Below are positions 3,779 to 62,017 of a DNA stretch of 64,000 nt, piece by piece. The position numbers and the translations under genes were made by a program. How positions within the stretch are numbered: the first letter of the stretch is position 1; each line of letters begins with the position of its first letter. Origin of the DNA: Neoarius graeffei (lineage: Eukaryota > Chordata > Actinopteri > Siluriformes > Ariidae); NCBI RefSeq assembly GCF_027579695.1, contig NC_083582.1:30704964-30768963 (forward strand), written 5' to 3'. The notes under the pieces are model-generated. The model was not told where the DNA came from and did no database searches. It saw only the letters and a list, made by a program, of their open reading frames with translations.

Positions 3779-4126
3779 CTCATCTCATCTCATTATCTCT
3801 AGCCGCTTTATCCTGTCCTGCAAGCTGAAGCCTATCCCAGCTGACTACGGGGGAAAGGCGGGGTACACCCTGGACAAGTCGCCAGGTCATCACAGGGCTG
3901 ACACATAGACACAGACAACCATTCACACTCACATTCACACCTACGGTCAATTTAGAGTCACCAGTTAACCTAACCTGCATGTCTTTGGGGGAAACCGGAG
4001 CACCCGGAGGAAACCCACGGGGAGAACATGCAAACTCCGCACAGAAAGGCCCTCGCCGGCCACGGGGCTCGAACCCGGACCTTCTTGCTGTGAGGCGACA
4101 GCGCTAACCACTACACCACCGTGCTG
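3779..4126 (-). mobile_element. tRNA-derived SINE, near full length
   Basis: On the minus strand the copy starts with a tRNA-like head carrying an A-box-like TGGTGTAGTGGTTAGCGC and a B-box GGTTCGAGCCC, followed by the conserved body with CATGCAGGTTAGGTTAACTG and CAGCTGGGATAGGCTCC-like segments, and ends in the ATGAGATGAG tail. This SINE family recurs at least ten more times in the window and is the most useful dating marker here. It resembles the family called Mermaid in fish; the name is from memory. Confidence 0.9.
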
Positions 4127-58475: not shown

Positions 58476-58862
<387 letters not shown>

Positions 58863-60590: not shown

Positions 60591-60778
60591 TTTTTATTAT
60601 TATTATTGCCCTAACAGTAGAAATGGAAATTTTTCAGGTGAGTAGCTTTTCTTTTTTTTTTTTAAAATAGCCATTCCCTGACGTATGAAGATCAACACAC
60701 TTATCTTTCCCATGTTGATGTTGAGTGAATTTGGCCTCTGTGTCGCCTCATATTTGTTCCCCAGTTAATCAGGAAGTC

Positions 60779-61702
60779 TATGGAATCAATTTTGTGCCAA
60801 AATGTTCATACAATACTTTTGAAATATCAAACAAAAACGACAAATCAAAATACAGAAAAAGAAGAAAAAATTTTTTAGACTGGCAAACAAATTATTCATG
60901 TAATCGTGCAAAATATCAGTCTATTACTCTTCAGAAACCTTTTATTTTTGTTCCGCGTCTTTCTCAGTTTTGTTTGACGTAATTTATTTTGCTTGCGATT
61001 CCAGCTTTCTCGTTTGCGCTCCCTGACTTTTTGCTTGCAGTTTTGGCACAAACTTCACGTGTGGGTGGGCTGTCCAGGAATGCATTCCCATTGGCTAACT
61101 TGTGTTTGACTGACAGCTACGCTCAGCCATTTCCTACTCGGATTCTGGCGGACTGTTTGACGAGTGACCGATCCATTGACGGTAAACAAGGATCGAGTGG
61201 ACTTCAGTGGCGACTATGATATTGAATTTACACTTTGTTGAATTAATTCAGTATCATAGTCGCCACTGAAGTCCACTCGATCCTTGTTTACCGTCAATGG
61301 ATCGGTCACTCGTCAAACAGTCCGCCAGAATCCGAGTAGGAAATGGCTGAGCGTAGCTGTCAGTCAAACACAAGTTAGCCAATGGGAATGCATTCCTGGA
61401 CAGCCCACCCACACGTCAAGTTTGTGCCAAAACTGCAAGCAAAAAGTCAGGGAGCGCAAACGAGAAAGCTGGAATCGCAACCAAAATAAATTACGTCAAA
61501 CAAAACTGAGAAAGACGCGGAACAAAAATAAAAGGTTTCTGAAGAGTAATAGACTGATATTTTGCACGATTACACGAATAATTTGTTTGCCAGTCTAAAA
61601 AAAATTTACTTTTTTTTTTCTTTTTGTGTATTTTGATTTGTCGTTTTTGTTTGATATTTAAAAAGTATTGTATGAACATTTTGGCACAAAATTGATTCCA
61701 TA
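60779..61702. mobile_element. 924-bp near-perfect palindromic (foldback) element
   Basis: TATGGAATCAATTTTGTGCC at 60779 is repeated exactly inverted at 61702, and the two arms stay nearly identical for about 455 bases each, around a centre of roughly 15 bases near 61240 (TACACTTTGTTGAATT). GAAGTC flanks both ends (60773-60778 and 61703-61708). The Tc1-family sequence AATCAGGAAGTC | CTGGATTACAGC reads through when the palindrome is removed, so this is an insertion. The arms encode the same short frame (DWQTNYSCNRAKYQSITLQK) but no known domain. Confidence 0.9.
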
Positions 61703-62017
61703 GAAGTCCTGGATTACAGCTTGAAAGTTCCTACACACTCCAGTCAACTCAAAAATACTGCCCAGTTTAAATGGGAAACATGCTTCAGTTACATTCATAC
61801 TATAATTTCCAGGAGCGCCAATAATAGTTGCACGGCTTTTTTTTGTCATTGTTAAATAATAATTTCTTGATGAGGGATTTGTTTTTCTCTGAATAAACTT
61901 ATTTCAATTAAAAGTTGCAACTTCACCAAAAGGCGGATTTTTTTTTCCTAACCCTTTTTACTAATCTTTACGGGGGAAGCAGTAATCGTGGAGGGCACTA
62001 TCCATCCATCCATCCAC

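Follow-up and report, generated by a model that had tools for sequence, protein, structure and literature searches.

A 924-bp near-perfect palindrome in the genome of Neoarius graeffei is a dispersed mobile element and most likely a non-autonomous, foldback-type member of the IS3EU superfamily

The palindrome and its insertion site

The window discussed here is a stretch of 64,000 nucleotides of the Neoarius graeffei genome (assembly GCF_027579695.1, contig NC_083582.1, positions 30,704,964 to 30,768,963), and all coordinates without a contig or locus label refer to it. On its forward strand, a PRKAR1A-like stretch at 58533–58670 encodes 46 residues with 96% identity to a segment of vertebrate PRKAR1A. 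A palindromic element of 924 bp, bounded by TATGG...CCATA, lies 2.1 kb downstream (60779–61702). The earlier note had placed this element in a presumed prkar1a intron; the upstream segment makes an intronic position plausible and confirms that proposal in part, but no later PRKAR1A exon was found within the window at E 0.001, a cut-off at which short exons may escape notice.

The element, delimited from the sequence, a repeat finder, arm alignment, and folding, consists of a left arm of 450 bp (60779–61228, forward strand; repeat finder and comparison of copies), an unpaired centre of 16 nt (61229–61244; repeat finder), and a right arm of 458 bp (61245–61702, reverse strand; repeat finder and arm alignment) that is the reverse complement of the left. 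By sequence and repeat finder, the arms are approximately 97% complementary around the centre, the repeat finder itself reporting 97% complementarity between 60848–61228 and 61245–61625 with 16 nt between them. Global alignment of the arms yielded 454 aligned columns (446 identities and 8 mismatches), gaps of 8 bases in an A/T run and 7 bases at the centre, and a single unpaired end base, with TATGG..CCATA at both ends. When folded as single-stranded DNA, the element is predicted to form one hairpin of −551.6 kcal/mol, whereas 20 shuffled sequences average −102.8 kcal/mol. Such a hairpin could, if transcribed, yield double-stranded RNA, as the earlier note proposed. There is no recognisable gene, and two arm reading frames, taken from a longer copy described below (L031), had no Pfam match; nor does the repeat-finder list contain a tandem array within the element.

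A 17-base motif, TCAATTTTGTGCCAAAA, occupies both termini (60786–60802, forward strand, corresponding to element positions 8–24; and 61679–61695, reverse strand), as found by repeat finder and motif search, and is a candidate transposase-binding site. It recurs once per arm, inverted in the left arm (61041–61057, reverse strand, element positions 263–279, with 2 mismatches in 17 and 1 in the 15-base core) and direct in the right arm (61416–61432, forward strand, element positions 638–654, with 1 mismatch in 17), so that there are four copies in all. Among 42 arms compared, 40 have the 15-base core of the internal motif (exact in 39), the two without it presumably being the shortened arms of copies L012 and L028. 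Other stretches of the arms are equally conserved, and conservation of the motif alone is no proof of function.

The hexamer GAAGTC stands immediately outside the element on both sides (60773–60778 and 61703–61708, both on the forward strand), as established from the sequence, by alignment, and by a test of duplications across the family. That test covered 28 copies—the window copy, the 20 best-scoring other copies, and seven from contig C1 picked by the spacing of their ends—and found an exact 6-bp duplication in 15 and a match of at least five of six bases in 24; among 9,500 control pairs, drawn at random with 925 bp between their positions within 19 of these loci, 48 (0.5%) matched at five or more of six bases. 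The four misses are L023, L026 (which has no right end and whose right boundary was also misplaced by the script), and L019 and L030, the flanks of which match in another register over 7 bp and 5 bp, respectively.

The sequence cut by the element (the parts of 60700–61810 that lie outside 60779–61708) is a dispersed host repeat, putatively of Tc1 type according to the earlier note. When the window flanks were joined with one GAAGTC kept (201 bases, junction at base 99/100) and used as a query, all 40 scored places, the best 40 of 1,928 candidates, matched from query base 1–23 to 178–201 and thus across the junction, which means that uninterrupted copies of the host repeat exist elsewhere. The account from which this work started—a 924-bp near-perfect palindrome with exact TATGG ends, without a protein, flanked by duplicated GAAGTC, and inserted as a unit into a sequence continuous across the site—therefore holds for the window copy, and the many palindromic copies with 6-bp duplications described below extend it to a family.

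A family of copies with one shared centre

The host genome (2.34 Gb in 38 contigs) was searched with one arm. All of the best 40 of 1,557 candidates, which were the ones scored, match over the full arm at 97–100% identity, the window copy ranking first. The 20 other copies that were fetched (ranks 2–21) are without exception palindromic and have TATGG at one end at least, although one arm is shortened in L012 and in L028 and the right end is missing from L026; as the best-scoring copies they form a favourable sample, and not every copy is intact. The first genome search had suggested one-armed copies through short partial matches to the second arm, a candidate class that was dropped when 20 of the other 39 scored places all proved to be palindromes.

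With at most two mismatches, the terminal 26-mer of the family (family end TATGGAATCAATTTTGTGCC) occurs at 3,923 sites, 1,960 forward and 1,963 reverse, and its control at none; at two ends per copy, this would be about two thousand copies. The first 100 end sites listed, all exact and all on C1, include 29 facing pairs within 6 kb (ten of 909–975 bp, eight of 1,003–1,155 bp, six shorter, and five longer) and 42 unpaired sites, which again indicates that not every copy is intact. The five longer pairs (1.3–2.4 kb) were considered as autonomous copies and rejected: all are palindromes with inserted or replaced DNA (four of the five were viewed in sequence, and open reading frames were listed for two). 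By eye, the insert of L032 looks Tc1-like, and an inserted stretch in L029 contains, at 630–755, a reading frame with what may be the start of a THAP domain.

The centre of the palindrome is asymmetric (GATATTGAATT / TACACTTTGTTGAATTAATTCA). A 33-nt pattern of this centre, with up to three mismatches allowed, was found at 1,039 places in the genome (527 on one strand and 512 on the other), with none for the control. The window copy and 18 of the 20 fetched copies have this centre exactly, L022 and L025 differ from it by one substitution each, and L065 and L066 have it exactly or with one change. Among the exact centres listed, C1 (131 Mb) has 10, fewer than C2 (30) and C3 (38).

The palindrome in the window is thus real and mobile and, moving as a unit, has reached about a thousand sites or more. 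Lack of other copies with the same ends had been named at the outset as a sign of an artefact, and the 3,923 terminal 26-mers and 20 palindromic copies out of 20 dispose of that concern. Near-perfect palindromes are a classic assembly artefact, but an assembly fold-back or a local inversion-duplication with no mobile element is for all practical purposes excluded by the dispersal of thousands of ends and 1,039 centres over separate sites, by the 6-bp duplications, and by the empty-site matches.

Because one asymmetric centre is common to the copies, the element transposes in its palindromic form rather than arising afresh site by site. Formation anew at each place, by hairpin-templated synthesis from a one-armed element, would accord with the near-identity of arms within copies and with some rare variants being common to both arms, yet it is very improbable given that 1,039 sites, and each of the 21 short copies compared, have the same asymmetric centre; moreover, a pattern for long arms leaving the palindrome at the GTAAGT boundary, an insensitive search, returned no one-armed copy (0 matches, control 0).

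The family also has a long form. In L031, both arms run approximately 65–75 bp past the centre of the short form, resulting in arms of approximately 525 bp around a short imperfect loop, and removal of 190 bp of the apex from L031 leaves exactly the short centre. A long-arm pattern with up to three mismatches occurs at 957 sites in the genome (control 0), which at two sites per copy would correspond to about 480 copies. With 209 bases from the centre of L031 as the query, all 40 scored places (the best 40 of 814 candidates) matched on both strands, and a pattern for the long-form loop matched L031 itself alone; the other long copies evidently differ from L031 in the loop. The simplest order of events is a long form, one apex deletion, and amplification of the short form, the direction being the inferred part: the 924-bp form would have had a single origin from a longer palindrome (arms of approximately 525 bp) that lost about 190 bp of its hairpin apex, and would then have been amplified to about a thousand copies. 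Five tip-only remnants of 35–51 bp, in which both element ends are joined and nearly all of the interior is lost (C10:5311292-5311326, C10:6006644-6006678, C12:41629353-41629403, C20:61348580-61348616, and C23:7023485-7023519; control 0), look like extreme apex deletions.

Superfamily assignment and the source of transposase

The IS3EU families of a 2025 publication (PMC12730594) are characterised by 6-bp target site duplications (TSDs), inverted repeats of over 30 bp, and TAYGG..CCRTA ends, and complete IS3EU families by invariable TA..TA termini and usually 6-bp TSDs in a 2023 publication (PMC10045372), which also places GingerRoot elements, likewise with 6 bp TSDs, in the same lineage. The element has a 6-bp TSD, ends that are an instance of this consensus (TATGG..CCATA), and inverted repeats of approximately 450 bp, and shares these features with the non-autonomous families of that lineage (IS3EU/GingerRoot) as they are outlined in those texts (PMC12730594, PMC10045372). 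Since its ends and duplication fit the published definition, we file it as, most likely, a non-autonomous IS3EU member; from among the three superfamilies that had been put forward for it (IS3EU, Dada, and Polinton), these same two features single out IS3EU. Unlike those families, it is almost wholly inverted repeat, carries no transposase, and has no partner found. No palindromic IS3EU family was found described in the IS3EU literature covered here, and an entry in Repbase or Dfam may exist.

Polinton and Dada elements also create 6-bp duplications, and Polinton/Maverick elements have AG-type termini and polymerase/integrase genes. Membership of the element in such a group (Polinton/Maverick, Dada, or hAT6, the last of which reportedly also has 6-bp duplications) would be compatible with the duplication length and with the lack of a partner enzyme found for it, but we consider this improbable: at 924 bp and with TATGG ends, the element does not resemble a Polinton/Maverick, and TATGG..CCATA is an IS3EU terminus as given in PMC12730594.

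In architecture, the element resembles the foldback elements (FB, Galileo, and Tetris): it is non-autonomous, has very long inverted repeats, and has no partner found, as PMC4079207 describes for Tetris. According to the same publication, Galileo has extra transposase sites inside its long inverted repeats, and most foldback elements are said to be Mutator. Long inverted repeats likewise make up most of the element, and its internal repetition consists of one copy of the terminal motif within each arm, with no tandem array listed; by analogy with Galileo (PMC4079207), the internal motif is possibly an extra transposase-binding site. It differs from foldback elements in that no tandem repeats or middle domain were found and in that its ends and TSD fit another superfamily.

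Palindromic miniature elements (MITEs) are known as well, among them the Angel elements of fish and human MADE1. The family shares with these the absence of genes, hairpin formation, and high copy number, but at 924 bp to about 1.1 kb it is much longer, and they belong to other superfamilies. Its two size classes are accompanied by shorter and longer pairs, and its length exceeds the usual range of MITEs. It is accordingly a foldback/MITE-like non-autonomous element, here assigned to IS3EU, that stands out by length, near-perfection, and copy number.

The element has no recognisable protein, and no transposase-bearing copy with these ends was encountered in the loci and pattern searches described below, from which we infer mobilisation in trans. 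A transposase encoded elsewhere in the genome would bind the TATGG ends, and perhaps also the repeated TTTGTGCCAAAA motif, excise the element, and reinsert it through a 6-bp staggered cut, which would create the GAAGTC duplication; the palindrome would transpose as one unit. To the reading as a whole—a non-autonomous foldback-type IS3EU DNA transposon, mobilised in trans, whose short form arose by one apex deletion and was then amplified—we assign a probability of about 0.85.

The Pfam family PF24764 (rva_4, integrase core), which is presumed here to mark IS3EU transposases, has 156 matches among the best 150 of 752 candidates in the host genome and none in 14 control genomes. One such protein matches PF24764 at 8.5e-68 and Pfam rve more weakly, and its likeness to retroviral integrase structures is weak (best E 0.0021), as expected of a DDE enzyme of the IS3/IS481 type. 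Loci L034–L064 comprise at least five groups of PF24764 loci (presumably IS3EU-like), several of them with copies 97–99% alike and partly with long open frames. A repeat of approximately 375 bp, by eye a tRNA-type SINE, lies in or near L036, L037, L041, L044, L045, L049, L053, and L058.

An intact partner gene would be expected to be flanked by the family end, TATGGAATCAATTTTG. By BLAST, the arm is absent from all 30 PF24764 loci searched (approximately 3.4 kb each, with flanks of approximately 1.5 kb, most of them not long enough to extend to element ends), the sole trace being one 20-base site at 5 mismatches in L042, and it is also absent from one further locus of 7 kb. Nor does any of the 30 loci contain an entire element with TAYGG..CCRTA ends between exact 6-bp duplicates. 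A genome-wide pattern for family ends that leave the palindrome, an insensitive search, revealed no second family, its 6 rows at 5 places comparing with 5 from a reversed-pattern control; by eye, three of the places are tip-only remnants, one on C8 is a family end with an indel, and one on C22 is a family end cut by other DNA. Of the follow-up that the earlier note had proposed, other palindromic copies and empty sites were thus found, whereas an autonomous relative with TATGG ends was absent from the 31, mostly too short, PF24764 loci. An arm-encoded peptide (DRVDFSGDYDIELIQQS and its neighbours) was considered as the first exon of a lost transposase and rejected, as it had no Pfam match and tblastn against the 30 loci gave nothing convincing.

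A living partner may not exist at all, the autonomous IS3EU source having been lost or having decayed and the copies being fossils. This has a serious chance of being correct, if the smaller one: the locus and pattern searches yielded no partner, and the right arms, which were not used in selecting copies, differ by 2.6% on average from the arm majority. Against it, the loci searched for a partner comprised one stretch of 7 kb and, for 30 PF24764 candidates out of 752, approximately 1.5 kb on either side, and the 97–99% likeness among copies in several PF24764 groups indicates that related elements spread recently.

Persistence and correction of the arms

In primate fibroblasts, replication is stalled by inverted repeats whose spacer measures 12 bp, and arms become more recombinogenic the longer, the more similar, and the closer they are (PMC7999016). 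About a thousand centres are present in one genome here, and the copies read have arms of approximately 450 bp around a 16-nt centre. Because close, long inverted repeats are considered recombinogenic (PMC7999016), a family with about a thousand such centres, near-perfect in the copies read, merits study even though elements of this kind are known: it constitutes a natural series in which to study the tolerance, deletion, or correction of long palindromes by vertebrate cells. The assignment proposed here would also bring foldback architecture into IS3EU, for which Repbase had only 45 families, 17 of them autonomous, as of 2022 (PMC10045372).

Unit transposition alone gives no excess of rare variants shared between the arms of a copy, whereas arm-to-arm conversion would. 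In 21 copies, ten rare alleles are found on the two arms of the same copy, whereas permutation gave a mean of 2.35 and reached ten in none of 5,000 trials; in a rerun, the mean was 2.42 and 3 of 5,000 reached ten. The A/T run (alignment columns 86–111) was excluded from both the first run and the rerun. In the rerun without CpG sites, seven shared alleles compare with 1.36 (6 of 5,000), and for non-CpG transversions three compare with 0.68 (134 of 5,000); under other limits, a previous count had found 11 where 4.4 were expected. Six copies contribute the ten shared alleles: L018 (three), L012 and L025 (two each), L013, L017, and the window copy. Doubletons occur three times in the same copy and 27 times across copies. 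Mean arm distance within copies is 2.66%, against 2.83% when permuted (5 of 10,000 permutations were as low), and so small a gap argues against a strong role for conversion. Likeness to the left arm of the window copy was the basis on which copies were selected, and divergence between left arms (1.55%) is accordingly biased low relative to that between right arms (4.85%). The evidence for arm-to-arm conversion is therefore suggestive, coming as it does from a small, biased sample in which assembly polishing could mimic the signal.

On these comparisons of copies, we raise only tentatively the idea, which we regard as doubtful, that the near-perfect palindrome is actively maintained, its arms being corrected against each other in a hairpin or cruciform during replication or transposition while apex deletions would give ever shorter forms, from about 1.1 kb through 924 bp down to, in the most extreme case, the tip-only remnants of 35–51 bp. 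If this were true, a class of sequence deemed too unstable for vertebrate chromosomes would persist at a thousand or more sites. A last observation concerns C3:8340363-8342028, where the distance between two facing inner long-arm sites is 1.6 kb, against the usual approximately 0.18 kb, and which is either a nested insertion or a relative that has lost less sequence.
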